DNA from: Nanobdellota archaeon
GTDB taxonomy: Archaea; Nanobdellota; Nanobdellia; Woesearchaeales; JAHJEM01
Direction of reading: 5' to 3'
Length of the DNA: 35,032 nt
NCBI GenBank assembly: GCA_018825425.1
Contig: JAHJEM010000140.1
Location: forward strand, 1 to 35,032
The translations under genes were made by a program, and so were the position numbers. Shown piece after piece: positions 2,587 to 35,032 of this stretch (the first letter of the stretch is position 1; every line of letters starts with the position of its first letter). Under the pieces are notes generated by a model that was not told the DNA's origin, searched no databases, and saw only the letters and a program-made list of their open reading frames with translations.

Positions 2587-3621
2587 CTATCCGACTTCAA
2601 TTTTGATTTCTTGATCGTCATCCTTATCTGCGCTCAAATAATTCACATCATTCTCCTTTTTTGAAGACATAGAAAGGAATACGTCCTCTAATGTGGGTTT
2701 TATCACCCTTAACTCTATTATTTCTTCTTTAGCTTCTTCTACAATGTGAAGAATCCTATGAAGTACCTTTGCAGGATTCGTTGTAAAAATGGAAAGTTCA
2801 GTCCCATTAACTCCTGTCTTAATTATTGATTTAAGCTTGAGCTTTGAAAGCAGTTTTTTATAATCTCCAGGATAAGATTCAATTACAATCTCTTCAGCTT
2901 TTTGATATTTTATTCTAATTTCATCAGGAGGACCAATATCAACAATCTTACCATATTTAAGCAAGGCGACCCTTGTACATAGTTTTTCCATGTCCTGCAG
3001 ATGATGACTCGAGACGAGAACGGTTGTCCCTTTTTTGTTTATGCTTCTTAACAACTGCCAAATATGATTTTTTAGCAGAGGATCCAAATCTGCTGTCGGC
3101 TCGTCCAGGATGAGCACATCAGGATCATGCATCATGGCACAGGCAATATCTAACCTGCGTTCCATTCCGCCAGAAAGATTTTCAGCAAGAGTGTTCTCAG
3201 CTAAGTTAAGGTCCATCAATTTTAACAAAGTATTTCTATTCTGAACTATTGCAGTTTTGGAAAGGTCATAAAGTGTGCCAAAATAGTCAAGATTCTCCTT
3301 TACACTTAGCTTCTTATAAAACGATGGCAGTTGGGATGCAAAACCATACGTTTGTTTTACCAAGAATTTTTTTCGATAAACAGAATCATATCCTGATCCA
3401 GTTCCACTCTTAAGAAGATGGGCTTGTCTAAACAGGACATCGCCTTTTTCTGGCTTTAGAAATCCAATTATTGTATTTAGCAGGGTTGTTTTACCAGAAC
3501 CGCTTGAGCCAATCACTCCAAGGACTTCTCCAGCGTAGATGTCTAGGTTGATATTGGATAGCACAGTCTTTGAACCAAATGATTTGGAGACATTTCTAAT
3601 CTTAAAGATTGGTTCAGACAT
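2587..3621 (-). CDS. ABC transporter ATP-binding protein
   Basis: 344 aa; Walker A GSSGSGKTT, signature LSGGMERR, Walker B VLILDEPTADLDP, H-loop SSHH. Confidence 0.95.
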   Translation of the reverse strand: MSEPIFKIRNVSKSFGSKTVLSNINLDIYAGEVLGVIGSSGSGKTTLLNTIIGFLKPEKGDVLFRQAHLLKSGTGSGYDSVYRKKFLVKQTYGFASQLPSFYKKLSVKENLDYFGTLYDLSKTAIVQNRNTLLKLMDLNLAENTLAENLSGGMERRLDIACAMMHDPDVLILDEPTADLDPLLKNHIWQLLRSINKKGTTVLVSSHHLQDMEKLCTRVALLKYGKIVDIGPPDEIRIKYQKAEEIVIESYPGDYKKLLSKLKLKSIIKTGVNGTELSIFTTNPAKVLHRILHIVEEAKEEIIELRVIKPTLEDVFLSMSSKKENDVNYLSADKDDDQEIKIEVG

Positions 3622-3745
3622 TCTACTCTATTCACCCCTCATCATGAAAAACAAACATGTTTTTTAAATCTGTGTCTTAACTCCTCAGAGAGAACTGGTG
3701 ATTTAGTTGGGAAATCACGAAGCCGCAGCAAACATATCAGCAATA

Positions 3746-5221
3746 TCAGAATCGGATATAATTCCTCAGATGTTTGACAATCTCATATTGGAAGAACAAG
3801 AAGCCTCCTGCATAGAAAAAGACCTGGATTAAGAGTAACAGCATAAACATCATGCTTAAGAATATTTGAGTTGAAATAAGTGAATTTATCAGGGTAAGAT
3901 GGTATCCTAGGACATTTATGAAGTAAATCCCTGTATAGTAAGCAAAAAACACCTGGGACAGAATTATTGCTAGAATTGTTGCCCCTTTTCTGATGATTTC
4001 AAATCTTGCTCCAAACCAGAAAATAAGGGCCAGAACAAGTGAACCCGCAAGTATGGACCCCAATGGAATCAATGTATTGATTATATGGGGCACGATATCC
4101 ACACCAACAAGAACTTTAGAAGAAATGGAAACAATATTGAAGGTTGATGCAATGAGAAGTGAAGGTATTGAAAGATAGAACACCAGTAAGTACCATCGCC
4201 GGATCCTGATCAGTTTTCCTGTATAGATAAAATACCACAATATACCTGGAATTGCCAGAAGAAGAATGATTCCAAGTACATTGCAGATATACACAAGGAT
4301 TACAAATATTGATTCAATTAAGGATTTGCCAGCAACATCCACTGAAATAAGAGAGTAAATGGTTTCATGAGAACCCAAAGCATGATAATAGAACACATCT
4401 CTCAAACTGAAGAGATAAGGAAGTATGAAATTGGCAAAATCACTCAGAAGATGAAGCACAAGCATACCTGAAATTCCCAGCAATAAGGTCTCTTTGTACT
4501 TGAAATGCCCCAGTACGTGCTCATAGAAGCGTTCTCCTGTATCTCCAATCCTGTACAGGAAAGATTCTGGATGGAACCTTTTTGCATGCTTGACAAAATA
4601 GAATATGTATGCCAATAGAACGATCATTGCAAGCGGAGCATCGACAGCAATTGCAAGCCATTCAAAAAGCAGATTAAACACAATTACAAAGAATGCTAAC
4701 AAGACAAATAAGACCTTGAAATAACGCCATATATAGTTCAGAACCCTATGAGGATGGCCTACACTGTGTAAGATAGCCATTATGCTTGGACCTTTGAAGT
4801 CCCACTTAAGTGCAAAGTACAGGGCACCGCATAGCAGCATGATTGAACCAATAAAAAAACTGCTATAAAGCAATGCCAATTGGTTATAGACAAGGAACCC
4901 AAGAAAGTCTTTCATCCAGTGTGTGGTTGCTTCGTGAAGCAAAACAGTAGCCCAGTGAAGAATGCTTTTGAACATGAGCAATAGATATGCCAGAATCAGA
5001 TACAAGTCAAAGAATCTATTCTTTACCCCGAAGAACAGGTTGGTCAAGCTGACCTTGTAGAGCAAGTAGCCTAGTATTCCCCAAGAGACAATCTTTTTGA
5101 TCCAATCCATGTAATCAGGCAGGATCTCAAAGAAATCCAATACATTAAGGATTATCACGAAAAGGATGATAAAATCCTCAATACCAAATGCAATTCTTGT
5201 TGATACCTTTCTTACATCCAC
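3746..5221 (-). CDS. polytopic membrane protein of unknown function
   Basis: 491 aa with about 10-12 hydrophobic segments; no recognised catalytic motif. Confidence 0.75.
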   Translation of the reverse strand: MDVRKVSTRIAFGIEDFIILFVIILNVLDFFEILPDYMDWIKKIVSWGILGYLLYKVSLTNLFFGVKNRFFDLYLILAYLLLMFKSILHWATVLLHEATTHWMKDFLGFLVYNQLALLYSSFFIGSIMLLCGALYFALKWDFKGPSIMAILHSVGHPHRVLNYIWRYFKVLFVLLAFFVIVFNLLFEWLAIAVDAPLAMIVLLAYIFYFVKHAKRFHPESFLYRIGDTGERFYEHVLGHFKYKETLLLGISGMLVLHLLSDFANFILPYLFSLRDVFYYHALGSHETIYSLISVDVAGKSLIESIFVILVYICNVLGIILLLAIPGILWYFIYTGKLIRIRRWYLLVFYLSIPSLLIASTFNIVSISSKVLVGVDIVPHIINTLIPLGSILAGSLVLALIFWFGARFEIIRKGATILAIILSQVFFAYYTGIYFINVLGYHLTLINSLISTQIFLSMMFMLLLLIQVFFYAGGFLFFQYEIVKHLRNYIRF

Positions 5222-11799: not shown

Positions 11800-13821
11800 T
11801 CATCGAGGTTTGATTGTACTGTCCCCTTCTAATACTGAATCTAAGAAAGAGTTGAGCAATTCAATGATTCCTCTCTGAGTGATTATTCCCTCAAGTTCAC
11901 CCGCAGTAATCACTGCCAGAGTCTTTACTTGTTTGTCTAGCATAAGATTATTTGCTTCAGTGGCATATGTTCCAGGAATGACATGGTAGATGTGTAGGCT
12001 CATGAGCTGGCCAACTTTCGTGTTCTTCAGGAATAAAGGATTGTTATACAATTCAGCAATAAGATCCCTTTCAGTAATTAATCCTTTTAACTTATTATTA
12101 TGTTTTATTACAATGCAATCTGCCTTTTTCTTAATCATTTGAGATATGGCAACTCCCAAATTATCCTCTTCCTTTGCCTCAATATAATCCTTGGTTATTG
12201 CGCTTTTTACAATCGGCAAATCAGATTCAAATGAGTATTCTTTGAAGAATTTCTGAAGCTCTTTTGATATATCTGTGTGAGTTACTATTCCGCGTAATTT
12301 CTCCTCACGTACAGGTATTTTTCTAATGTTATTGTGAAGAGAAAATTTTATTACTTCAGAAAGATTCATATTTGGAATAACAGTTTTCAAAGGAGAATTC
12401 ATTACGTCTTTTACTTTGATATCCTTAATATCCTTTCTAAGGGCAATCTTCAATACATCTCGTTGGGTGATTATTCCTACTGGCTGGGTGCCCTCTACAA
12501 CAATCATTCCACCGATGTTTAGAGAAATAAATTGACTTAAGACCTCAGATATACTTGTTTCTTTTGAAATCGTGATTATCTCTTTTGTCATTATATTCTT
12601 GGCTTTGATACGTTGAAGTTTTGTTACTGACCGCTGTAGATTTGAAATCAAATATGAATCTACCATTGAAGTAACGCCACCACTGACAGTGTCCCAATTG
12701 CGTATTGCCAAAGCCACCCCAATCAGAATCACAACAAGGATAATCCATTTAAGGTGTTTCATAGCAGTTGAACCCACCTTAGCACCAACATTGGCTGCAA
12801 CACCAGTAGCTGCAGTCTTTACCTGCTCAACAACAGTCTCTTCATTTTGCTCTTCTTGTTTTTTCGGAACAGTGTGAAATATTGTGGTGCTTATATTTTT
12901 ATTAGAATTCAAAGTTATGTTTATTTGCTCTTCCTCTGTCTCCAGAGTAACTGATGCATTTGGCATTGGAGGTAGTTCGCTTCTTGGAAACCAATAATGC
13001 CCCTCAAGAGAACTGTTTCCTAACTCTTTGGCTTCTTCTTCTGATAGGGTAGTTGTGGTTCTTTCATGGACTTGTCCGTCTTCACCTTCCCATTTCAGGC
13101 TTACTTCGTAGTCAGGCATAGGATTTCCATCCTCGTCCACAATCTGACCCTGTAAAGGCATATCTTCTGCCAGTCTCTCTCTTTGTAGAGCCTCAAGCCC
13201 CTTTGCTCTGCTTATTGGAGCATCTGTAACATTGTTCTGAGGAGATAAAAATTCCCAAATCTTTCTTGCACTTAGTCTGAGAAGATCAGCAAGTTTCATC
13301 CTATTTCCTTCTCCCCCTTCTGCAGAAGCATCAGGATCACCAAAGCCCATGTCTCCAGTTGATGCACCAGTTGTTCCACCCTCATGTCTGCCAGATCCAG
13401 GCCCACCTGAACCTCCACCACCGCCTGAACTTTCTTGATTGGGAATATCTGGAGCTTCAGTTAGCAGGATTGATTCAGCTCTCAACAGTCCACTTCCAGG
13501 GTTTGCCGTAACTGTACTTCTCACGCCTGCAGATTCAATAATGATTTCAGTTCCGGCTTTTGCCTGGAGATAACCCTGATTGAAAAAATAGTATCCTGCT
13601 TCATTACCTGTCATGGTCTGGGTAGATATGCTTCTTTGTGTGCCGTCACTATCTACAAATTTGGCAGTAACAGTAATCCCACTGACAGGAGTGTAGTCTG
13701 GACCGATAACTCTTCCATGCACAAGTGTAGGTAGAACTGGTTGGGCACCAAAGACCAGAGAATATGTCAAAATACTACCAACCAGAAAGACAAGTATTAA
13801 CCATATTTTATTTGTATGCAT
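11800..13821 (-). CDS. membrane receptor-like protein: signal peptide, two extracellular carboxypeptidase-regulatory-like domains, single TM, four cytosolic CBS domains
   Basis: 673 aa; signal peptide MHTNKIWLILVFLVGSILTYSLVFGAQ; VHGRVIGPDYTPVSGITVTAKF and LQGQIVDEDGNPMPDYEVSLKW domains; TM HLKWIILVVILIGVALAI; four CBS motifs (MTKEIITISKETSISEV...; VMNSPLKTVIPNMNLSEV...; ITKDYIEAKEEDNLGVA...; MSLHIYHVIPGTYATEA...). Confidence 0.85.
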   Translation of the reverse strand: MHTNKIWLILVFLVGSILTYSLVFGAQPVLPTLVHGRVIGPDYTPVSGITVTAKFVDSDGTQRSISTQTMTGNEAGYYFFNQGYLQAKAGTEIIIESAGVRSTVTANPGSGLLRAESILLTEAPDIPNQESSGGGGGSGGPGSGRHEGGTTGASTGDMGFGDPDASAEGGEGNRMKLADLLRLSARKIWEFLSPQNNVTDAPISRAKGLEALQRERLAEDMPLQGQIVDEDGNPMPDYEVSLKWEGEDGQVHERTTTTLSEEEAKELGNSSLEGHYWFPRSELPPMPNASVTLETEEEQINITLNSNKNISTTIFHTVPKKQEEQNEETVVEQVKTAATGVAANVGAKVGSTAMKHLKWIILVVILIGVALAIRNWDTVSGGVTSMVDSYLISNLQRSVTKLQRIKAKNIMTKEIITISKETSISEVLSQFISLNIGGMIVVEGTQPVGIITQRDVLKIALRKDIKDIKVKDVMNSPLKTVIPNMNLSEVIKFSLHNNIRKIPVREEKLRGIVTHTDISKELQKFFKEYSFESDLPIVKSAITKDYIEAKEEDNLGVAISQMIKKKADCIVIKHNNKLKGLITERDLIAELYNNPLFLKNTKVGQLMSLHIYHVIPGTYATEANNLMLDKQVKTLAVITAGELEGIITQRGIIELLNSFLDSVLEGDSTIKPR

Positions 13822-13822
13822 T

Positions 13823-14370
13823 CTAAGGAGTCCATGTTGAGTGTTTTTTCATATCAATGACTAGTCCAACTCCTGGTTGCAGATTATTGAGTGTGTTCTG
13901 TTGATACACTGTTGGATATGTCTGATATATATCCCATTTTCCTAGAGCATTATTCCAGGAATATATCCTGTGAAAATCTTCTTTTATGGAATTGAAGACA
14001 ACTGCGCTCTCTCGTTGGTCGAGGAAAGGATAACCAATAAAATTCCATCCAGGAATTAGGTTCTGAGAGTATTCAGCTACAGGATAACCTACAACACTCA
14101 ATTGAGCAGGAGAATTCATATCAATCCAATAACTTTTTCCAATGCTTAATTGAATCAAGGTGTTATCTGGATCATAAATATCTCTTCCAGGAGTATACGC
14201 TTGCCAGAGTCTTGTCGTGGGCTCATAATAATATATCCTATTGTATGCTCCTGCGATTGAACTAAGAACAACAGAAGTGGATTGGTCTGCCGGTATTACA
14301 GGTAATGATATGAGATTCCAGCCAGCTTGCAATGATATAATCTGCTCTCTGCTTTCACTTGCATTTATTA
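13823..14370 (-). other. C-terminal duplicated GWNLI/GWNFI domain of the giant protein
   Basis: SLQAGWNLISLPVIPADQSTSVVLSSIAGAYNRIYYYEP and NLIPGWNFIGYPFLDQRESAVVFNSIKEDFHRIYSWNN are two copies of one unit. Confidence 0.8.
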
Positions 14371-17300
14371 CCTCTGTCTGCTGTTCGATTCCTGTTGCAG
14401 TATTATTATTCAGATCTGCAGCCTTGAAATTATAAGTATACGTCGTTTTATCTATTCCTGTTGTATCCCATTCATATGTACAAGTGCCATTATTAGCTCC
14501 TTGTATGAAATTGTTATCAACACCATCATAGGTAAATGCATCACAGGATTCCCCTTGTTCAATACATACTGCACAAGAATGAGCAAGTCCTGATCCTTCA
14601 TCTGATACTGATGCACTTAAGACCACAAGTCCTGCCACTCTTGGTCCCACATCATGCACATTGACAATTGGAGGCGTGACATCATCAGGCATGCCACCTG
14701 TTGCTATGACTTCTGGATTCTCATTTCCATCATCATCCACACCAGTCACAGCATAATAATGAATTCTTCCTTCTGCAAGGTCAACATCAACATATGAAGT
14801 GTCTGTAGTGGTCTTGATTGGAGTCATTGTACTAATATCTTCAAATACTGCAAGAGAACGATAGATATTATAATATTCCAAATCTGTAGCATTTGATTGG
14901 TTCCATACCAGTCTCATTGAAGATTCTCCTTCAATCATTTCTAAACTTAAACTGTGGATTGGTCCGGGTGGTGTGACATCTGCAACTTGACCATCTCTAG
15001 CAAACACATCTTTATTCTCACGTCCGTATATGTCAACCGCAGTGATTGCATAATAATAAATTCCTTCACTGTCCAGACCAGGGTCAGTAAACGAAGCAGT
15101 TACTACCTCTTCAATTGGAGTCATTGCTTCAACATTGTCAAAATCATTATCTGATCTGTAAATATTGTAATGATCAAAGTCAGATTCAGGAGCAGGATTC
15201 CAGCTCAATCGCAATGATGTCACTCCAGGAATAGTGACCACGTTCAATCCTCCGATAGGTGCTGGCGGACTCAGATCAACCTCAAAATACCTATTGGTAA
15301 AACCAATATTTTCACCCATATCCATGCACTGCACTGTCACAAGATTATGGCCTTCAGGCACAATCATGATTGTTGTACCATTGACTGAATGATTTTCTCC
15401 ATAATTCAGAGAGAATGTACACCAATCAACATCCTCATTGACCACATAGACCAGATTCACTTCCTCTGATGTGTATTTCTGGTTTTCAGGAGAGATTATG
15501 GTTATTTCAGGAGGTATAGAGTCGGCAACAACACCTTCGACACTCATCACTTCATCAACCTCGTTTCCAGCCATGTCAACTGCAGTGATTGCATAATAAT
15601 AAGTCTCTTCACTAAACACACCCTCATCAAGATACTCATTTCCAATTGACTCAACAATGGCAGTCATTGATGAAATATCTGTAAATTCTGTTTCAAGCCG
15701 ATAAATATTGTAATGATCAAGACCTGTATCAAGCGACTCATCCCAATTAAGTTGTAGAGCAGAGTTTTTTGGTATTGATGTTACCCTTAATCCAGTAATA
15801 TCCTGCGGTGGAATTGTATCTACTTCAAAAGTGATTGGTTCAGATTCACCAGTATTACCTGATGTGTCCTCACACCCCAAAACCACTATGTGTTCTCCGT
15901 CTCCTGCAATCAATACATCTGTTGCAGGTACAAATTCTGAAGAATCCAAGGAGTATGTGCAGTCTCCTAATTCTTCATCTCCATAATAGAGTAGAGGAAT
16001 TGAAGGAGTATTGTACAAAATTGATTCAGGAGACACCAAAGTGAGGATTGGTGGAGTGATATCTGAAACATGTCCTGTTCTGGCAGACACATCTTTGTCC
16101 TCATTTCCAGAATCATCAACTGCAGTGACTGCATAATACAGTATCTGATCGCTTTCTAGATCAACATCCTGATACGTGGTTAAGGTAACTTGCGCAATTG
16201 GATCTAATTCAGTGATATCAAAGAACCAGTGCTCTAACTTATAAATATTATAATGATCAAAGTCTTCAGCTTGGTTTTCTCCCCATTCAAGGTCAAGCAC
16301 CAATTCTCCAGGCACAGTTATGACTGCAAGATTCAATATTGGATTAGGAGGTTCTACATCTGCTACGGTTCCAGCGACGGCATCTACCTCTGTCAACATA
16401 TTATCTACCTCGTCAACACCAACCACTGCGTAATAATACGTTGTCTCACTATTCAGACCTGTATTTGTAAATGTAAGTACACCATTATCTGTGGCGCCGA
16501 TCATGCTGGCGTCGTTTATACTGGTGAAATCATTACGTGAACGATATATCCTATAATATGAGAAATCACTGGGTAAGAAACCAACAGTCCATGTAAGCAA
16601 AAGCTTTGCTTCTCCTGGAACAGATGCTACAGTAAGCTCTGTTGGAGGAGGCGATGTTGTGTCTACAGTGTACATAACAGTATTTGAGAATCCTGTATTG
16701 GCAGAGAGATCATCACACTTCATCTGTACTGTGTTCAGACCTTCTCCAGATGTAATCGTAGACGTGAATGGTTGGTACTGCTGACTGTTCAAAGAGTATT
16801 GGCATGCTGTGACCTGTTCATTAGCCACATATCTTAGATGGACTGTATCAGTATTATATGTCTTGTCTACAGGGGAGATAAGATCAATTTCTGGATCTAT
16901 AAGATCAGCAGCAGTTCCTGAAACTGAAGGTACATTTGTATCCTTATTTCCGGCGTCGTCTACTGCGACAACAGTGTAATAGTATGTTTTTCCATTCTCC
17001 AGATCAATATCTGAATAGGATGTAGTGCTTCTGGAATAGATTGTTGTCAGTAGTTGACCTGGACTTGCGTGCCTATATATATTATAATAATCAAAATCAT
17101 CTGCAGTTGAGGCATCCCACGATATCTCAATCTCGTATCTGCCTTGAATTGATTCTACTGTAACTCCTGTAACTGGTTCAGGAGTTATATAGTCAGGAAC
17201 CTGAGCCCAGACAGGCACCACATTCTTGTTCTCGTAGCCACTTCTATCAACAGGAGTGACACCATAATAGAATGCTGCCTCGCTTTCCAGACCTTCATCA

Positions 17301-20300
17301 GTAAAATAATCTGCAAAAGAAGTCATAATCTTTGTTGCAGCATCCGCATGAGTAAATGGTTCGATAGACTTATATATGTTGTAGTGTGAAATATCTGTAG
17401 CACCACTTCTGACCCAATGAATATACAAGTCATCTGCACCCGGAACTGAATCTACCCAGACCATTTCCAAAGGTTCGGGTGGTCGAGTATCAATGTAGAA
17501 GATGATGGTTCCTGATATTCCAAGATTATTTGATTCATCAACACAGCTTGCAAAGATATAATTCTCACCTTCAATTCCTGTTATTGATCCGTTTGACTGA
17601 TTTATGTTTACATCTCCTGCACCATTGAGGTTGTACCAGCACTCGACCACGTCTTCGCTGCCAATAACTGTTAATGGCAGTGTGAAAGTATCATAAGTAT
17701 TTAATTGAGGAGAGATCACACTGACTAACGGGGGAGTCAGATCTGCAACTGTTCCTGCAACAGAGCTCACAATATTATTTTCATTCCCTCTTAAATCAAC
17801 ACCAGTTACTGCATAGTAATATGTCTGCTCACTAATCAATGTCTCATCAAGATACTCTGTTTCTTGTGCGTCTGGGGAATCCCTTAGTTCTGCTTGGGAA
17901 ATATCGCTGAAGCTTTGATCTGCTCTATAAACATTATAATATTCTATGTCCGCGACTTGACTTGCCTGCCAAGATATTTGAAGAGCAGTTTCTCCAGGTA
18001 CAGCTTGCACAGTTACACCTTCGATTTGATTGGGTGCAGTATTATCCAATACCACTTCGATTGGCTCTCCAGCACCCATGTTGTCTGTGCCATCTCTAAT
18101 TCTGAAACTGATTGTGTAGGTCTGATCAGGATAGCCTTGTGTTATCCATTCAAAAGAACAAGCACCATCCATATCTCCAGGTAGGAAATCATTTAATACA
18201 CCTTGAGATGACCATTCAGTATCACAAGTACCATCTGAGCTTATGCAGACTTCACAAGTCTGCGCTAGTTCATTGGTCGGGTCTGAGACCATTGCACTTA
18301 GATAAATTATGCCCCTTGGTAAATCAACTTGGTTCATCAAAACTATTGGTGGCACAGTATCATTTACCTGGAAATTAACTGTGGACTCTCCTTCAAGTCC
18401 AATGATGTCTCTAGCGACGAGAATGAGATCATTTTCTCCAATCACAGGAGTTATTGGAATGTTCTCACCTTGCATACTTGTAACAGTAACAAAGTCACCG
18501 CCATTCAGGCTGAACCTAGCCCATTCAATCTCTTCATCAACACTATATCGCAAATTGATATTCTGTGTTGGATAAGTTGCATGGATTGGTGAGTGTATAG
18601 TAACAACAGGAGGTGATGCGTCCACAATGATCGGACCTCCAATTATTTCATGAGATTGCCCGCCAGGATCTGCAGGTACATATGGATCAGGTTCAGTTAT
18701 ATCATTTGGAGCACTAACAGTAATTGTTGTGCCTGCTTTGGCTTGAACATTTCCTTCATTGAACATGAAATAGCCAACCATGTCAGGTTGTCCCATTTCC
18801 AATGCCTCTTCAATAGTCAGAGTTACAGCAATTGTCTCTTGGCTTTCATTGGCAGCATCAGTCCAGGCCGCCGTAACAGGAATTCCCTGGACAGGACTCT
18901 GGTTATTTGCAAACCGAACTGCACCGAATAAAGTTGTGGGCAGGTATGGCTGGAACCGTTCAGGCACTGTACTAAACACATAATAGTTACCACCATTAGT
19001 ATAAAGAGCGGAGTTGCCCAGAATATCTTCTGATTCCACACTGGACATATATGTTGTATCAGGTTCTAGACCACGCAAGGTCACTGAATGGTGTTCTTTC
19101 AAGAAGTCTCGCGCCTCTTCCTCATCAGGAGGAATGCCGGTTCCATAATGTACTGTACTCGTAGCTGGTTCATTGGTGTCCCATTCAATTGTTGCTGTAT
19201 CTGCATTTACCTCAGTAACCTCAATGTTTGACAGTACTGGTTTTGATGTCTCTAATTCTTCAGTGGTCTTTAAGTAAACAGTCTGATTATTGCCACCATT
19301 TGATTGCCAGAAGACAGATCTGAGCAAGTGCGTAACTTTAGGATTGGTTGAAAGGGCAGCATCATAAGTCATCCTGTTTCTGTCAATCAATTCATAAAGG
19401 TCTCTATGTATCTTTGCATATACAATCTCACCTTCCTCTTGCCAAACTGCATGGAGCTGGAATCCTAAAACAAGGTCAAGTTCTGTGGCTGTTGGATTCG
19501 CATTCAGGTCAATGGAATTGCCAAGGCTTGTCCCGTTCACCCCTGTAATGCGTATGGTGTTATTGGTTATCAATCCCAGATATATCCCTCCACTCACTCC
19601 GACCGCAGGATAGGATCCTTGGCCAAAAGGAATGTTCTTAATGGTATTAGCATCATTATCTAACAACAGATAATGATTATTATTGGATGAATCTTGCCAC
19701 ACTACATGGATGCTGCTTGAAGCATATTCAGCCTCATAATCAACTGCTCTCAATCCAGAACTTATCTTTCTTGCAGCATAGACTGTATTGCCTTGAGTAT
19801 TCAGAGTCTTGATATATAGTTCAGGAATTCCATCCCTGTCATCAATCATTAGCAGATAAACATATGTGTCTCCTGCAAGGATTGTTGGTTTTTCTGAATT
19901 GTAAACATTGGTTGTGATTCTCTTGTTGTCAATCAAGAATTCTCCTGTCGAATCAAGTTTTGACATGTATATCTCCTTATTTGCATCGCGATCATCAACC
20001 CAAGCAACATATGAAGTTCCCGAACCATCCACGTCAATGTTCGGATTGTTAGAATTATAGAAATTATTGGTCAGTCTCGTGCTATACCATTCCAATCTGC
20101 CAAAACCATTCATCTTGGTATAGAAAATCTCAGGGTTATCATAACGCGTATCCTCATACACTAGATGCCTGTTGCCTTGGCTGTCTGACATCGCATACAT
20201 TGAGTCAGGAGAATCTTCTCTGGTCATCTCAATCGTGCTTGACCATTCAATTGGCTCATTAACTCTAAGTTCAGTTTCAGTTGATCCATACAATCCGACA

Positions 20301-23300
20301 TAATCATACGCAACAATGGTTACAGTATAATATCCTGGATTTGCAGGGGCAGTCAAATCAGCCTCATACACATTGGGTGATACAATGGTCATTGAATATG
20401 CTTGACCTCCAAGATATGCTGTAACATTAGACACACCAACAGTATCATTAGCAATGACCGTCAAATGGGCCAAACCTCCTGCATCTGTAGGATTTGTCAT
20501 CTCCAGAACATATACTCCTGGAGGATTAGAATCTTTCAAGCTGTATCCAGTAATGTTTGCAGTGTTATTTGCAGTATCTGACAATCGGAAGGTTATAGAA
20601 TAGTTACCGTCAGGATATGTTGCTGCGTCCCATACAAAATGACACATACCGCTTGAATCACCATAATTATACAATGGATTGCCTGCTTGCCAAGCACAAC
20701 CTGGAAGAGCAGAGAAACAGACTTCGCAATCAGTAGCAAGGCCACTGTAATCAGATGCGTTTATTGCAAGAACAACTGTTGTGTTTACAATAGGAGGAAT
20801 GTTTACAAATGCAAGGGTTGGAGGAGTTCTGTCTTCTCCACAGAAATGAGTCTCACGGACATAGTATTCTCCTTCTCCACTGAATTTCATATGATATTGG
20901 CCAGGATCAGGATGATATACAGTAATCATGTCTGTCTGACCAGGTGCAACAGTCAATGAATTATCATAAGGTTCACTGCAAGAAGCGGCTTGCTGCTTTG
21001 TATCCATGGTGATTGTACCAGAAATGGATTGGAGCGTTAGATTAAGTTCACAAGCGCCGTCTGTAAATGCTACGTGGCGGTATTGCACACCCTCTGATTC
21101 AGGAAATGATTCAGATATGTTGGTTTCATTCGTCGTCACATTTTCTTCTAAGGAAGTGGCACTGCCTTCAAGCCAACCATGTGCTTCACCGTCAAGAAGA
21201 CACGATTCAGGACAGGATACGCATTCAAGTTCTTGACTGCAAGAATATGATCTGTCCAATGAGAATTCTCCGGATCCTGTGACCCGCACATAGTAATTTC
21301 CAGCAGCAGTCAAGTATTGACTAACAGTCTCTGTTTGACCTGCAGATACAAATATTGATTGATCAAATGTATCTGTGCAAATATTTGGCTGAGAATTTAT
21401 TGAAAGCGCATGACCTTCTCCAAGAGATGTTATTGAAAATACGACAGCACAATTGTTATCAGATAATGTGTGGGTATAGAAACGAGAATTGTATATATTG
21501 TTGTCTTGATTATCTTGTTCTTCTTGTTCCTCATCATCCTGTTCTTCTTCCTGTTCTTCTTCATCAAATTGGCCTTCAGGATATCTGACCATAACCTTAT
21601 CAGGATTATTCGTATGCCACGTAATTGTGTCCCCATCGATATCCATGCCGAAATTAGCCCAATTCGTGGTTGTGCTTATCCTACTTTCCACGCCAGATAC
21701 CAAATCTTTGCTATATGTATCCCAACCACCATTACGATAGTCGGCCCAGATCACTTGGTCTCCAGAAATCTTTGGACCGAGTGAAGGAGTCGTGGAAATT
21801 CTGGTGTGAGTACTAGTTGAAAGATCATACATATAGATATTAAACTGCCCGTTGCGTTCATCTTCCCAGACAACGCGATTTCCATCAATATCAACTGCTC
21901 GTTGTAGCCAACCTCCAGAATAGATAGTTGTTATTCTTTCAGTATCCATATGATAAACCAGCACGTTGGATGACGAGCCATCAATAACTGCAACATTATT
22001 TCCAGATATTCTTGGCGCGGAAAAATATTCCCCAGGTATTAGCAAGGATTCTTCACCAGTATTTATGTCGTACAGATAGATACCATTAGCATCAGAATTA
22101 GACCTACGAAAGACAATATCTGTTCCATCAATATCAGGAAAACCCCAATATTCATCATCAGGAGATAATTGAGTGGTTACCCCTGTTTCATAATCGTATA
22201 AGAAAATTGCTCTATTAGTATATGGCCTATCCCAAACAACATAATTACCCGATATTTCCTGATATGCACCTGTTGTCTGAAATGATGCTATATCCATTAA
22301 TTCATCTGACTGTAAATCATAGAGGAATAACCTGGTGCTATTATAGCTTGAACCTCTTCCAAAAAAAGCCACCAGATTACCAGACACTCTTGGTGAACGT
22401 GCGATATCCAATCCAGGGGAAATCGGCTTGGTTATGTATCCGTCGGCCAATACAGGTCCAGTATCTAAACCAGGCATCTCAGAAGCATCAATTGAACCAA
22501 ATACCTGATCACCCAAAGAACACGCAATACCACAATTACTGCACATAGGTGCCTCAAAGCATCTTGTCTCTTTGACAATCTGGAAAGTACCTACTCCGCT
22601 CACTGCAGCATAATAATTACCTGGCCCGACCAGCATAGATATTGTTCCTGATTGTCCTTCTGGGACATTGATTTGCTGCTTGAACTCTTCACCACACACA
22701 TTTGAATTCTCATTCACAGAAAGCTTGAATGGTCCTCCAAAAGGATTCAACGTAATATTAACTTCACAAGAATTGTTTGTGATAGGAATAAAAAAGAAGC
22801 GACTGGTGTCTGCAGGGATGGTGTAACCTCCCTGCTCCTGATCATCACCTTGATCCTCTTGATCTCCATGATCTTCTATAGGAAGACCAAATGTGAACAT
22901 CTGTAGCAGTCTATTTCTGTCATCAATCCAAATAATTCGGTTGTCTGATACAGATGGCCAAATTTGTCGTCTGCTATCAGAGGTTACTTGGAGTTCTTGA
23001 CCTGTGCTAAGATCATACATGAAAATATTCTCATCAGGGAAACTATTACCCATTTCATCAGTAACCATTCCCGCACGAGCATCACTCCAGGTCACCCAAT
23101 TCCCTTCAATATCATAATCTTGTTCTTGCACAGAATTTGTGGTTATGCGTGTTTCTTGACCGGTTGACAAGTCATGAATAATGAGCTCTGACGGAGAATA
23201 TGTGTTATCTGAGTACATAATTTTGTTACCTGATATTGACGGCTGATACTGACCGTTTGGTTTACGAATTCGTGTAGCATTCTGCGTTCCATTCTGATCA

Positions 23301-26300
23301 GTTAGCTCATATACATAAACATCATAGTCAGTCCAATCTTCAGAATCACGATCATGAAATACGATTTTATTTCCTGAAATACTTGGCTTCATATGAAGAA
23401 AAGATGTCTCCATAACAAATTGATTCTGACCTGTGGCAATATCATAATAATAGATGCTCTTTCCGCTTGAATAAGCAACATAGTTACCTTCAATCTCTGG
23501 CATTTCGCCTCCTGCAGGGACGCTGATAACATCTTCCTGACCAGAATTCAAATCATACATGATAACTCTAGTGATATCATCCCGATTATCTGTAAATACG
23601 ACATAGTTATCGTATATGTCAGGAGTGTACATAGGGTCTTCAGAAGGTATTATGGTTTCTGTTCCTGTATCAAAATCATAAAAATAAACGTCCCCGTTCC
23701 TTATCCAGACTGCCCTGTTGTCATCAACCGAGTTTCTTCCCCCTTCTGTCCATGTTGGAAAATTCTGTAAGACATATGGAAGGCCATCAAACTCAATGTA
23801 CACAGGATCAGGAAGCGGAGGTTTGAACTGATCAACATCACATAACACTCCTTGTCTTGAGATCTGAGCACCCCATGTTCGAAGCACTTTCTCCCCTGTT
23901 TGTTCATCAACAGATCTCCAATACAATCGATTTTCAGCCACAATAGCTTTGGATTCATCTTGAGGAGTTGATGTAATCTGCGTAGTTGATCCTGTATTTA
24001 GATCATACAAAAACACATCCCAGTTACCATCTGGATTGCCCAAAAAGACTATCCAATTTGATTCCATCATAAATTCCTTTGGATTCCCTGCTCCAGAAAC
24101 AAGATCAGGAATGGCTTGAGTTACACCAGTAGCCCTGTTAAGAAGCATATTCCCGTATGTAACATAGTTGCCTGATATACGAGGATTTTCTCCAGCCGCA
24201 ACCTCAGAAATCTGACCTGTAGAAAAATCTTTAACCATTAGAGGATTTGCTGATCCATAAACATATTTCGCCCAAATCAATTGGTCCCCATCTGAATGAG
24301 GATGATATGAAATTTCAGAGGCAACCAAGGTGGTTTGGCCTGTAGATACATCATAAGTACGCAGTTGCCCAAGAGAACTACCGCTTGCTCCTGTCCAATA
24401 CACTATATTGTCAAATATTCCTAGGCCATCACCAGTCCAAACAGTGTAGGTTGGATTGGATGCAGGTTGGTGAATTAGTTGATTCTGTCCTGTGGTAAGA
24501 TCATGCATATGTATTGTCGATACTCTAATAGTATCTGCACTTCTTTGATTATGCCACACAATATGGTCTCCTGAAATTGCAGGTGTAATCTGATACCCAA
24601 GTTCTTCCGTGATCTGAGTGGTCGTGCCCGTCTCAAGATCGCAATAAAATATATCAGTACCATAATTTGTATCCAAAATATATCTTTCATCCCAGACGAT
24701 CTGTGCTCCTGAACCATCAACATTCACTCCAAATCCAGATGCGTCAGTCCACAAATATCCTACATCCTGGATAACATAATCAGCATAATCCCCCTGATCT
24801 TGTTCTTCATCCTCTTCCTCATCTTCCTCTTGATTTGGATAATTATCTACGCCAGCCCCGCCACCTTCAATGTAGTACACGTTTGGATATCCTGAATTCT
24901 GGGAAAAGTCATCCCAATAATTTCCCTCACTTCCTGAATCCCAAGTTGTAACCACACCAACATTCTCGTATGCGTTCTGTCCATTGTTCTCAAAGGTATT
25001 ATTATACGCTCCATCAATAATGCCATCACGAGCCACGAAAACTCCTCGTCCCGAATTGCCACTGATAATATTATTATGGAAATAACGTGTACCTGCATTT
25101 GCAGTAATCATAATACCCTCATTGTTGTTTTGGATTGTATTGCCATATATTTCAGCAAAGGTAGAAGATATTCCAAGGAAAATTGCTCTTCGAATACTAT
25201 TGCGGATAGTATTATCACGTATTCTTGAACTAATCACACTATTAGAAAAGTTGACTCCTGCATTACAACCATTAAAATCATTAAGCATTACTGACATATA
25301 GCTTGTAAATTGCGCTTTAACACCATCATGAACATCATTGAAAGTATTATCAAGTACAAGACTTCCGCTGCCTCCATTAACATAAACGCCTGTTTGTAAT
25401 CCTTCAAAATTGCAGTCCCTCACAGTTATGGTTTGACCTAATATTTCAATTCCAATATTCCCATATGTTCCTGGACCAGATATTGTATGACCATGACAGT
25501 TTATTGTGAATTCAGATCCTGTAGCTCGGAGCCCGACACCCTCACAATACATATCTTCTGTCAAATCAGTTTTTCCTGACACAGTGCCACCACACAAAGG
25601 AGATGGAGTGACATTTGTGTCATTACTATCATTACCTGGAGCACCAATAGCCATTCCAGTAATCATTCCCAAATCAGATGCTTTTAGAGTAAATTCTGGC
25701 GCGGATACACTGGATATCGGATTTCCTGAAATTACCATCCCAGTCATTTCACCAGGTGCGCTTTGTGGCTCAATCTCGCCTGAAAAAGAATATCTAAGCA
25801 AGCATGCATCTCCACAATCCATGCATGTATTGCCTAATTCATCACCTTCCAGCCAATGACATACATAATCATCTTCAAAATAGGTCAGTCTAGGGTCTGA
25901 ATCGTCACAGTCAGGTTCACTCTTACAATATTCAGAACAGCTAGCAGGCATGTCAGGAGATATTCCCCAATTGCAATAAGTATCATGATCATTATCATTA
26001 CACTGGATCTCATAATCACCAGTCAAGGTAGTAATAGGAGCAAGAACCGCATGAGTCCAACCAATGTTTGATATCGGGGTCTTGACGTATGCATAACCAT
26101 GATCGCCATATCCTGAACCCCAACTGTTCTTGAAGATCCAGATGGTCTTGCCGTCGTTAGGATCTGTCTTCCAACCCTCAAGGCTCATTGCGTGACTCCA
26201 ACTATATATTCCACCGCTGACAGCACCATTTACAATGTGCCCTTTAAGTACTTCCTCACCTTGAGAACCATAGAATGGAACGCGTCCTGCAACCCACAAT

Positions 26301-29300
26301 TTCTCTGATGGATTAGAACATTTATTAGCACAATTATTGTTTGTTGCAGTATACGGGAAACAACCCTCATTGACAACACCTGTTGTTGTATAATAATCCA
26401 AGGTCCTCCAAGGCCAACCTCCTGCACAAGATCCTGCCCCACTACACGAAAGAGCATCTTGCTCTGCCATGTTAAAATCAATGTGCTGATTGAAATATAA
26501 GTTTGCAGCCAGTTCGGTCGCACCAGTTGCAGCAAACGCCCAACAGCTTCCGCATTGCCTTTGATCCTTGATAGATGTCGGCCACCATTCTCCATGCCTA
26601 TCTCTCCAATCCCAACCAGAAGGATAATTGGATCCTGGAAGGCTTGGTTCTGGAGGAGTATAGTCTCCTGGAGGCTCTGCTCCTTCTGGAAGAACAAAAT
26701 CATCATCAAGAATAATATCAAATACACCTCCCGTATAATATTCAAATCCCTGAAGATTTGGAAGCTCGTCAATCTCACCAACTCCAAGCAAATTTTTCTT
26801 CTCTTCATAAGTCAGATCAGAAATAGGAGTTCTTCCTGCAGTCCAATCTAGATTGTTCCTATCTATGTAATCTCGGATCCTCTGAATCTTATAATCCTCT
26901 TGAGCAATATCTCTCTCAGAAGAACCTGCATCTACTGCTCTTCCTGTAATAAGACCTGAATCTCCCAGATCATCCATATCAACTGATCGAATCACCACGC
27001 GAGCATCTTCAATTTGAAGCTTGATACTGCTTGGAATAACACCCTCCAATTCACACGTCTCTTCACACACATCACTGATCTTAAATTTATCAGAAGGCGC
27101 GAGTAGAGTATACGTTTCATACACCAAGTATTCCTTGCCTTCTGTATCAACCAACACAACACGTACCAAACCATTGAAAGATGTAAACTCGATATCTGCA
27201 GTCAGTGCCAGACCGTCAATTGGTTTATCTATATTCAATGAATATTCATGATCAGATGTGAAGAACGCATTGATATCCCTCTTATCTGTCTTTTCAGAGA
27301 GCTTAAATATATCTGGAAGACTATCATCAATAGTCTCGTTTGTCTGGTTCTTGTCCTGTCTCTTCTCCCCGCACTTCTGTTCCTTGGCCAACTGATACCC
27401 TCCTTCACCGTGCACAGAGAGATAATATGTTCCTGGATATGTCAATTGTAGCTCAAGCGAACCAGATTGTTTTGCTGGCACAGTAATCTGCTCCTCATAG
27501 TTTTCTGAACAAACATCAGGAGAGGTACTTGCACTCAACACCAATTCTTCTTCGAGAGATGTAAGGATGAGCGTAATATCACAATCATTCTCATCAAGTA
27601 TGAAATGATGATTATTGGTCATGATCCCGTCATATCTGACACAGTAGAAATGTTTTCCTCCACCACTACCGCAACCAAGATCTTCTTTATTTATCCAATC
27701 AGGACCTGTCTCACCAATAAGGCCTATAGTTGCTTTCTTACTGTCAGTCTTAATTGTCCAATCAGCACAATTCTTGCCTGTTAATCTACCCTGCTCATCA
27801 GATCCTGTCCAGACATACTCCTTCAGCGGACTGACCCCTTGTGATGTCAGCTCAATAGGAGATAGAATATTTCCATCAAAAAGATCTGCTTTACTGTTGG
27901 CAACTATCTTACCATCTAGAGTCTTATACACAACATTTGGAAGCCTGTCTTTTGCATTGGTTTTTGAATCAGAAAGGATTGCAACATAGTTACCTTCAGG
28001 ATCAACATTGTATCCAGAACCCATACAGGTTCTATCTGCACTTCTTAGACCTCCAAAAATCCCTGATACTGCACTGCTGCTCACAAACATTGTACCATCA
28101 TAAACTGGTCTAGGAACCTCGTTTTTGGTTTGCTCTACCAAAAGACAGCTTCGGTGACAGTCTCTGCACTCATCCAATTGAGATAGTTGTTGATGGCAAA
28201 CAGCATCCTTACGTAATATGTACTGTCCGGATCCTTGGACACTTACACCATATGAACCTGATTCCAGATAATGTTTTGATATGGTTCTTGTCTGGCCTTC
28301 AGACACTGAAATGACGTCTGAGTCAGTTCCGCAAGAATCTTCTTGCGTTGCCAGCATAAATGAACCAGTCACAGCTGTAAGGGTTAATTCCACATCACAA
28401 TCCATTGCAGATAAATAATAATTATAATATTGTGTGGATTCTGAATTTGCAGTCACTTGATCAGCCAGTGCACAAGCATCATGGCACAATGTACACTCCT
28501 CTGCGGGTTTAGTCTCATAACGCACAAAATCAACACCAAGAACAGAACCAATATTTAGTTCAGATATTATCTCCTTTTTCTTAATGTCTGCAATCTTGAA
28601 TCCATAATATTCATCTGCAAGATATGCATAATTTCCATTGATATCGAGTTCCCGTATACTGCCTCTAATCTCAATCTTTGCATGTTGTTTAAGATCAGAT
28701 ATCCGTACAATATCTAAACCACTTTCCAAGCCAACATACAGATAGTCGCCTTGAGCCTTAACATCCAGCTGGAACATCTTGCTTTCATAATAATTCAGAT
28801 ATTGGAATGTGGATGCAGTTAAATCATTAATATCAAATTTTACCAGATCCGCAGTCAGCGACACGATAAATGCATGTGGTCCTTGAACAGCCACTCCAGA
28901 CGGACTTGTGGCGGCACTGTAACCCTTTCCCACAAGTCGCGGATTCGCCTTATTGGAAATGTCAATAACAGTTAGATCCGCATTTGCACAAGCAAGAAAG
29001 GCATGATTATCTCTAACTGTTACATCCTTGTTCTGAGAGCAATCGGCATAGGTTCCAACAATATTCATAGAAGTCGGATCTGAGATATCCACAATCCTAA
29101 GACCATGATCATCTGTAGCAAGATACGCATAATTATCCTGTATATCCATCCCCCAAATGAGATCCGAAGGCATGCTACCCATAATTGTTGGATTCGTGGG
29201 ATTGCTAATGTCAACAGCAAGTAAAACCGTTCCAGCAAAATATGCAGTATTGCCTACCACAATAGCATCTCGTAAAAATGTGTCCGGAGCAGTAGCACCA

Positions 29301-29452
29301 ATAATACTTGGCGCCAGAGGATTAGTCACATCAACAATCTTTACACCTTCGCGCGTACCCAAGACAGCTAAGTCCTGTGCAGCAACATAATATGTGGAGA
29401 GCACTAACAATAGAACAAATACTACTAATCTACTTACACCACCACTCATCAT
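13823..29452 (-). CDS. giant secreted multidomain surface protein (5209 aa): LVIVD propeller, papain-like C1 protease, beta-helix, WD/TolB-like propellers, Cys-rich modules, FN3/Ig-like array
   Basis: Signal peptide [26 protein letters not shown]; one continuous ORF of 15.6 kb with coherent domain content along its whole length. Confidence 0.93.
   Translation of the reverse strand: [5209 protein letters not shown]
14650..18600 (-). repeat. array of about 8 fibronectin type III domains interleaved with Ig-like domains in the giant protein
   Basis: Eight YYNIYR/YYNVYR/YYRIYR-type strands, each followed by [9 protein letters not shown]..GNE; intervening Ig-like units of type PP.(I/V)..(I/L)SP....Y.T....L.Y....E..W/C.YSLN. 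Confidence 0.88.
19230..20250 (-). other. sialidase/BNR-like propeller segment of the giant protein
   Basis: [100 protein letters not shown]. Confidence 0.6.
21580..24770 (-). other. two blocks of TolB/surface-type beta-propeller repeats (about 24.77-22.88 kb and 22.42-21.58 kb)
   Basis: Recurrent [IV]SGNxI[VW]WxDxR...[IV][YF]xYDLxTGxxxxI[ST] strands, e.g. [33 protein letters not shown]. Confidence 0.8.
24880..25600 (-). other. NosD/right-handed parallel beta-helix domain of the giant protein
   Basis: [20 protein letters not shown]...[21 protein letters not shown]...[15 protein letters not shown]...[17 protein letters not shown]...[39 protein letters not shown]. Confidence 0.85.
26035..26620 (-). 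other. papain-like cysteine peptidase (C1 family) domain inside the giant protein
   Basis: [36 protein letters not shown] (Cys codon 26543-26545), SHAMSLEGW (His codon 26192-26194), [19 protein letters not shown] (Asn codon 26126-26128). Confidence 0.92.
28520..29380 (-). other. LVIVD-type beta-propeller repeats at the N-terminus of the giant protein
   Basis: Repeats [66 protein letters not shown]. Confidence 0.85.
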
Positions 29453-29708: not shown

Positions 29709-31928
29709 ATGAATAAACTCCCAATTATTGTGATTTCAATAATCTGCATACTGAATGTACACGCAGAACCAAGAATCAATGAGATAATGTATAATCCTAT
29801 TGGAAATGACAACAATAATGAGTTCGTAGAATTATTCAGCAACAACAGCACCCCAGATTTATCTCAATATACTATAGGAGATTTTGTTTTTAATGACAGT
29901 CTCGAATTACTCCTGCATATTCCAGACTCAAGATATAGCCTGATTGTGGAGCAAGATTTCAATTATTCTGGACTGAATTGCAGTGTATACACTGTAGGTG
30001 CAACTATCGGGGACAATTTGAACAATGATGAAGACTCAATATTTCTTTGGCTCAATCAAGAATTGATTGATTCAGTACAATATAATAACAGTCTGGCAGA
30101 TGGAAATGGAAAGAGTTTGGAATTTGATCCGTATATCCAATTTTGGAATGAATCAAGAGCACTTGGTGGAACTCCTTGCTCAATGAATAGTGTTTTATCA
30201 AATGAAACATACAATGAAAGCCCAGAAAGTCCAGGAACATACGATATCGAACTAACTACAGTTCTTGACGACATAATCTATCTGTATATGGATTACACAG
30301 CATTGTTTAAGGTAAAGAACCTTGATCATGTGAATGGAGTAGAAGAAAACATATTTGTATTAGTAGAATATAATATCACAAATCAAACAAAGCACACAAT
30401 TCTCCATGATACGTTTAATAAGACCATCAATTACTATTCATCATCTGATACTGGTTTCTTTGCCCCCATAGGTGTAGGCAACTATTCTATATGTGGTAAG
30501 ATTGTCAATACTAGCAAGCCAGATCCTAATCCAGAAAATGACTTCTCTTGTAATAATTTCACTGTGATTGACCCAACAACTATACCTTGCAACGTGAGTC
30601 TCCATCTTGAAATTGAAAAAATGATCTATCAGAACAAGGAAAAAGTAAAATTCCGCAATATAGTAAGCGAAGACACATATCCCTATATTATCAGATATAC
30701 CATTACAGACATCTTTGGAATTGAGAAAAGCAACAGAACAACCAAGAACACCAACCAAAAATCATTCACTCCAAGTCTATCTCGAGAATTAAATGTGTTT
30801 TTCATACAGAACTCTTTTGAATTTCTTGCCTGCAATAACTCAAATAATCAAACAAATAATTCTCTACCAATAATTGTGTATAATCCTATCCAGGAAACAT
30901 CAGAAAATCTGATAAAAATTGAAGAAGTCAAACCAGGCACAGAAAAACCCGCCAAATTTGGAGATTGGATACATGTAAAGACAAGAATCGTTAAAGGAAA
31001 CACCTTAAAGAAGAGTGTCCAGGCATTTGTTCATAAGAATAAAAAAAAAGTATCTGAAGTAACAAAGTTGAGCATGGAGAAAAAAAACACAGAAGTTATA
31101 ATTAATATTCCTTTGTTTATTGATTCAAATTGTGACGGCAGCTTAGCTGATTCAAGATATGAGGTGGTGGTTGACGGACTCGGTACAGGAGATGAAGAGA
31201 CAATAGATATACAAGGCATAAATACAAAAATGTGCGAAGAGACTAATGTTTCTAAACAAAATACATCAAAAAAACCAAAAAACACTACATCAGATTCCAA
31301 AATTGAATCATTCTATACACGCACTAAGAACTTCAAGGATGAAATCAGGTTCTATGCCCGAATAAGTGGAGCAAACATAACTCTGAGAATCCAAAATACA
31401 GCAAATAAATTGGTCAAAAAACAGATCCCAATCCACGCAATATTCACAAAAACATATTACATGGACGATATCAAAAAAGCTGTTGGTAATCTTAAAGAGC
31501 ACACTGAGACGGTAACAGAAACAATCTATGCAAAAGAGATACATATAGATGGAAATCCTGTTGGAACCAGCGTGGATTTCAATGTTAGTTTAGTAGAAGC
31601 AGACAATAACATCACGCTATTATTGCTACGAGATGAATATATCATTGATGAAAAAAGTGTAATAATGAATTTTGGCCATGAACAAGCTGAGCCAGAAATA
31701 TTTGCAGACAGAAAAGAAGAAAAAATACCTCAAAAAAACCCAGAAAACCAGATAACAGCAAATACAGTGCTCTATGAGTCAAAGAATGTGAAATTGCAAA
31801 AATATATAAACTACTTGCTCGTCATTCTTTTGTGCTTAGCTGCTTATGTCTACTCGAGAGAACATAAAAAATGGACAAAAAACAAATCAAAGAAGCAATT
31901 GAAAAAGGATACATCAGAGTTCACGTAA
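29709..31928 (+). CDS. secreted lamin-tail-domain (LTD) protein with C-terminal TM anchor
   Basis: 739 aa; signal peptide MNKLPIIVISIICILNVHA; LTD signature EPRINEIMYNPIGNDNNNEFVELFSNNST...LSQYTIGDF; many N-X-S/T sequons; TM INYLLVILLCLAAYVYS plus Lys-rich tail. Confidence 0.8.
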   Translation: MNKLPIIVISIICILNVHAEPRINEIMYNPIGNDNNNEFVELFSNNSTPDLSQYTIGDFVFNDSLELLLHIPDSRYSLIVEQDFNYSGLNCSVYTVGATIGDNLNNDEDSIFLWLNQELIDSVQYNNSLADGNGKSLEFDPYIQFWNESRALGGTPCSMNSVLSNETYNESPESPGTYDIELTTVLDDIIYLYMDYTALFKVKNLDHVNGVEENIFVLVEYNITNQTKHTILHDTFNKTINYYSSSDTGFFAPIGVGNYSICGKIVNTSKPDPNPENDFSCNNFTVIDPTTIPCNVSLHLEIEKMIYQNKEKVKFRNIVSEDTYPYIIRYTITDIFGIEKSNRTTKNTNQKSFTPSLSRELNVFFIQNSFEFLACNNSNNQTNNSLPIIVYNPIQETSENLIKIEEVKPGTEKPAKFGDWIHVKTRIVKGNTLKKSVQAFVHKNKKKVSEVTKLSMEKKNTEVIINIPLFIDSNCDGSLADSRYEVVVDGLGTGDEETIDIQGINTKMCEETNVSKQNTSKKPKNTTSDSKIESFYTRTKNFKDEIRFYARISGANITLRIQNTANKLVKKQIPIHAIFTKTYYMDDIKKAVGNLKEHTETVTETIYAKEIHIDGNPVGTSVDFNVSLVEADNNITLLLLRDEYIIDEKSVIMNFGHEQAEPEIFADRKEEKIPQKNPENQITANTVLYESKNVKLQKYINYLLVILLCLAAYVYSREHKKWTKNKSKKQLKKDTSEFT

Positions 31929-33675: not shown

Positions 33676-35032
<1,357 letters not shown>

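Follow-up and report, generated by a model that had tools for sequence, protein, structure and literature searches.

A giant secreted protein with a papain-type protease cassette and its membrane CBS-domain partner: a candidate two-gene cell-surface apparatus in a probable small archaeon

Introduction

What could a secreted protein of 5209 residues, carrying a protease within its chain, do for a small cell? The question is raised by a 15.6-kb gene, for which the preliminary description offered two answers: a contact or predation/attachment device, or a self-processing surface polyprotein. The window, i.e., the whole stretch of DNA analyzed, is the complete contig C18 (35,032 bp) of a MAG analyzed at the level of its assembled contigs (G000; 1.51 Mb, 143 contigs, 82% complete). 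The source organism is probably a small archaeon; its archaeal identity is put no more strongly, since the assembly, which is incomplete, yielded no archaeal 16S. L153, a weak relative retrieved with a C-terminal query, carries the label Woesearchaeota.

The Giant Gene and Its Domains

The reading frame is unbroken from ATG to TAG and lies on the minus strand, a detail missing from the preliminary description. It cannot be a chance frame; the probability of its staying open is about 10^-156 from composition alone, and a codon-usage score trained on the remaining genes of the contig ranked this frame first in 102 of the 103 windows (300 bp each) into which the gene was divided. Exact 25-mer repeats are absent from the gene, and an internal misassembly caused by repeats is therefore unlikely. 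The product (573 kDa, pI 4.1) contains all the domain types named previously (LVIVD propeller, Cys-rich modules, papain, beta-helix, further propellers and FN3/Ig domains), as profile matches and motifs demonstrate. Signal peptides and transmembrane segments were called here from hydropathy alone. The features of the gene are as follows.

13823..29452, minus: giant gene, 5209 aa (stop codon 13823-13825)
29378..29452, minus: signal peptide, about residues 1-25 (MMSGGVSRLVVFVLLLVLSTYYVAA; hydropathy and sequence)
28538..29374, minus: LVIVD beta-propeller, about residues 27-305 (PF08309, E=1.3e-36)
27353..28498, minus: Cys (CxxCxxxC) and beta-sandwich modules with a weak DUF1554-like stretch, about residues 319-700 (motifs, internal homology)
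25826..27331, minus: papain cassette, residues 708-1209, comprising a beta-sandwich, pro-region, C1 domain and CxDxDxDxYCxWGI module (alignment to stand-alone secreted proteins)
26042..26623, minus: Peptidase_C1 domain with Q964, C970 (26543-26545), H1087 (26192-26194) and N1109 (26126-26128)
24902..25510, minus: NosD-type beta-helix, about residues 1315-1517 (PF05048, E=3.9e-20)
21503..24655, minus: TIGR04275-type propellers with a Cys/beta-sandwich module between them, about residues 1600-2650 (TIGR04275, E=1e-26 and 2e-52)
13826..21145, minus: conserved backbone, residues ~2770-5209 (27-34% identity to three complete giants; part also in G018)
18620..18952, minus: domain in common with the ectodomain of the downstream partner (sequence similarity)
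14363..18595, minus: FN3/Ig array, about residues 3620-5030 (fn3, E=2e-17; motifs)
13826..14347, minus: duplicated C-terminal GWN (GWNLISLP) domain with no anchor signal (no transmembrane segment by hydropathy)

The TIGR04275 propellers are followed by more Cys/beta-sandwich modules and another propeller, then by the FN3/Ig array and the GWN domain. There are five CxxCxxxC modules in all. The region at about residues 319-700 is internally homologous to residues 2219-2301, 2652-2753 and 2792-2875, and its DUF1554-like stretch (PF07588) falls just under the cut-off. Neither the GWN domain nor the first Cys module matched any PDB sequence.

Two neighbors on the plus strand complete the picture of the window. 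The divergent neighbor of the giant (29709-31928) encodes a secreted protein of 739 aa that weakly matches a lamin-tail domain and has a hydrophobic segment at its C-terminus. A GyrA gene with an intein (33694-35031; NCBIfam GyrA_w_intein, LAGLIDADG domain) is cut by the contig end.

The Papain Cassette

Peptidase_C1 matches the giant twice in the same frame (E=9e-25 and 5e-7), and the active-site Gln, Cys, His and Asn are all present in the expected contexts, which places the domain in the papain family (peptidase C1) and bears out the earlier reading of a secreted mosaic with an intact-looking papain. Its top-scoring solved structures are those of dipeptidyl peptidase 1. AlphaFold2, run on a single sequence only, was uninformative (pLDDT 33.7). 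From the retained catalytic residues, the domain is predicted to be proteolytically active.

About 26 profile positions are absent ahead of the catalytic His. Several stand-alone papains of the order have the same short form and retain the Cys, His and Asn, and for this reason it looks like an established variant and not a private decay of the giant.

Stand-alone secreted proteins can be aligned with the cassette of about 500 residues; in several, the alignment begins directly behind the signal peptide, and it takes in the conserved pro-region and the CxDxDxDxYCxWGI module. Identity to the G252 protein is 38.5% over ~500 residues. Since the cassette exists as a stand-alone secreted protein in relatives, the papain of the giant is a whole enzyme inserted into it. 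Among 359 genomes of the order, a C1 match was found in 51; the C1-containing frames other than the giant are 191-2057 residues long, and none of these proteins (G252, G340, G001, G133 and others) is joined to the backbone. The stand-alone papain of G340 carries TIGR04275 propellers and that of G133 the beta-helix region. No relatives of the cassette were found among viral contigs.

The Downstream Membrane Partner

The hydropathy profile of the giant has one signal-like segment, at the N-terminus, and no convincing C-terminal transmembrane segment. Anchoring by an archaeosortase was considered and rejected, exosortase (PF09721) having no match in the 82%-complete assembly. The preliminary description, which saw no anchor, was thus right for the giant itself; the product of the next gene, which starts one base past the stop codon of the giant, is the likely anchor.

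11800..13821, minus: partner gene, 673 aa, with a signal peptide, two CarboxypepD_reg-like ectodomains, one transmembrane segment and four CBS domains
13456-13746 and 12922-13155, minus: CarboxypepD_reg-like ectodomains of the partner
~12682-12777, minus: transmembrane segment of the partner (hydropathy)

In an independent BLAST comparison, the partner ectodomain is 43% identical to the domain of the giant at 18620-18952. Because its ectodomain is related to a stalk domain of the giant and it crosses the membrane once, the partner is proposed to dock the giant. A PDB sequence search with this ectodomain gave nothing convincing.

A profile (A2) that includes the copies from the window detects the partner ectodomain in 16 of the 359 genomes of the order; among 377 sampled genomes of the phylum, the ectodomain is confined to this order. 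Ten of the 16 partner-bearing genomes were checked, and these have a partner-like gene with no adjoining backbone giant, so the partner has other uses and its family is wider than the pair. Such genes are found at L177-L185, most with homology to the TM-CBS part; at L178 (G181) a 1176-aa Ig/PKD-type membrane protein is encoded 7 bp upstream of the partner-like gene.

The Gene Pair in Other Genomes

The C-terminal query, run over the 359 genomes of the order, retrieved three complete collinear giants, in G290 (5647 aa), G288 (4654 aa) and G283 (4457 aa), and a fourth in G018, which is cut by a contig end (1437 aa seen). The homology of the three complete proteins spans residues ~2770-5209 of the window giant at 27-34% identity; their N-terminal modules differ from those of the window giant (PEGA, CARDB and FG-GAP in G283 and G288). 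A backbone giant with the partner as the next gene is found in five of five genomes (G000, G018, G283, G288 and G290). These represent three families; the four genomes besides G000 come from two families of the order other than its own. No pair was seen in G001, a genome of the same genus that is 71% complete, and its incompleteness may be the reason. A genome_contigs scan with the C-terminus of the giant gave mostly FN3-level matches in other phyla. The collinear giant and its partner thus recur in four genomes, and papain is absent from the three complete giants among them. No characterized close homologue of the giant was found, and the open-access literature searched yielded no account of the gene pair.

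Papain and Subtilisin on the Same Backbone

The giants of G283, G288 and G290 share the backbone and downstream partner with the window giant; they contain no C1 match and carry an S8 subtilisin in papain's place. In G283 and G288, an I9 prodomain and a subtilisin (PF00082, E=3e-56 and 2e-58) are located upstream of the backbone. The S8 of G290 is 55% identical to that of G288, lies within the FN3/Ig array and is permuted: the His/Ser part (~3235-3470) precedes the I9/Asp part (~4010-4120), and the flanks read as one Ig domain. In the gene (L154:2106-19049), the module is seen as an insert of ~889 residues within that Ig domain; its junctions have only GAT in common, and the gene has no 25-mer repeats. 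The permuted order could result either from insertion of a circular intermediate or from an assembly error.

A protease of one of two unrelated folds is thus present in all four complete giants. Because the S8 domains are homologous and form one lineage, the proteases represent two acquisitions, not four. The window organism also has a separate stand-alone S8 of 531 residues elsewhere in its genome. Distant relatives keep the gene pair with an unrelated protease, which points to the presence of some protease at the cell surface as the important property. Possession of a protease is not general among the giants of the order, since none was seen in the parts read of four others (G000:C59, G041, G142 and G017:C98). 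The first, from the window's own genome (L070:7613-14563, 2316 aa), has a Vgb-lyase-like propeller and a GWN domain with no protease match. A non-orthologous giant ending in GWN (L068:1-7716 of G021, frame of 3386 aa) carries I9 and S8 and a ThuA-like stretch under its cut-off. A 10,861-aa frame in G292:C29 (L160, L159, L161) was discarded as a giant, as it crosses a long stretch of N.

Proposed Function and Alternatives

The giant and its partner could form a two-gene cell-surface apparatus, in which an FN3/Ig stalk bearing an exchangeable protease head is docked on the membrane CBS protein; we hold this reading with about even confidence. The giant would be exported by Sec. Its C-terminal half would be a stalk of tens of nanometers if extended, and its N-terminal half a substrate-binding head, in which the complete papain-type zymogen cassette is combined with propellers and the beta-helix. 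The downstream protein would serve for docking and sensing, its CBS domains, predicted to be cytosolic, possibly signaling contact or nucleotide state to the cell interior. From its position at the cell surface or beyond it, the protease would cleave surface or environmental proteins. This is supported by the partner gene next to every backbone giant, the domain common to the two proteins, the homology of the backbones, the papain/subtilisin difference, the complete cassette with its catalytic residues, the signal peptides on both proteins and the transmembrane segment of the partner; the partner genes without a giant in ten genomes, the G018 partner, which has a transmembrane segment and no CBS match, the count of only two acquisitions and the missing C1 positions speak against it. 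A contact or predation/attachment role is plausible; conservation of the membrane partner and retention of a protease despite the change of fold make it more so. A more specific version, a contact apparatus not described before, with interchangeable non-homologous proteases directed at partner or prey cells from a giant stalk on a membrane CBS sensor, is advanced tentatively and is rather doubtful.

The main rival is a secreted or loosely bound exoenzyme for nutrient scavenging, with the partner as a co-expressed sensor that does no docking and with no function in cell contact. The propellers, beta-helix and Ig domains would bind particulate protein or polysaccharide, and the protease would feed the cell. 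The stand-alone secreted enzymes, with their propellers or beta-helix region, agree with this, and bulk proteolysis would tolerate swapped folds; however, scavenging needs neither a large stalk nor a conserved partner that shares an ectodomain with it. This reading is possible and on the unlikely side.

Self-processing, the second of the earlier answers, fares much worse and is judged improbable. A single chain does hold the protease together with a substrate-like array that it could cut into fragments, and the pro-region implies activation by cleavage. The backbone, however, persists with either protease at different places, as expected of a late, lineage-specific and exchangeable cassette; the three complete collinear giants are without papain, four other giants of the order show no protease in the parts read, and no conserved cleavage sites were identified. 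A papain that has lost catalysis and acts as a binding domain would agree with the gap ahead of the catalytic His, but the recurrence of that short form with its catalytic residues kept makes this similarly improbable. An assembly chimera, joining a papain-propeller protein to a backbone giant, could be suspected from the separate relatives of the two halves in a fragmented MAG, but is very improbable: the gene is in frame throughout with a uniform codon signal and similar GC, and has no internal repeats to force a join, and related Cys/beta-sandwich modules flank the boundary at residue ~2770.

Comparison with SPEARE Proteins

The nearest described objects are the SPEARE giants of Nanohaloarchaeota, proteins of thousands of residues with a signal peptide and a long Ig-type ectodomain in small host-dependent archaea. 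Most are anchored by a transmembrane segment of their own near one end, in most members the C-terminus, and carry a cytosolic domain that was first interpreted as restriction-type and later as a VirB4/TraG-like ATPase; an embedded serine protease was proposed by the first authors, and the later paper doubts any protease (PMC6642349, PMC10266531). The window giant resembles them in its signal peptide and in the very long, Ig-rich ectodomain that follows. In contrast to SPEARE, it has no transmembrane segment of its own by hydropathy, the membrane part being a separate CBS-domain protein; no ATPase or restriction-type domain (no Pfam or NCBIfam match); and no laminin-G match (Pfam, E<=0.1). Because of these differences, it is not filed as a SPEARE. 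By analogy, it may act as SPEARE proteins do, placing a long Ig-rich ectodomain between cells.

Implications

The gene pair bears on how tiny, probably host-associated archaea make contact with other cells and exploit them. The recognizable two-gene signature with an exchangeable catalytic part provides a handle for searches across genomes, and the enzyme can be tested directly. The case also shows that whole enzymes are moved as cassettes in the construction of giant surface proteins in this order.
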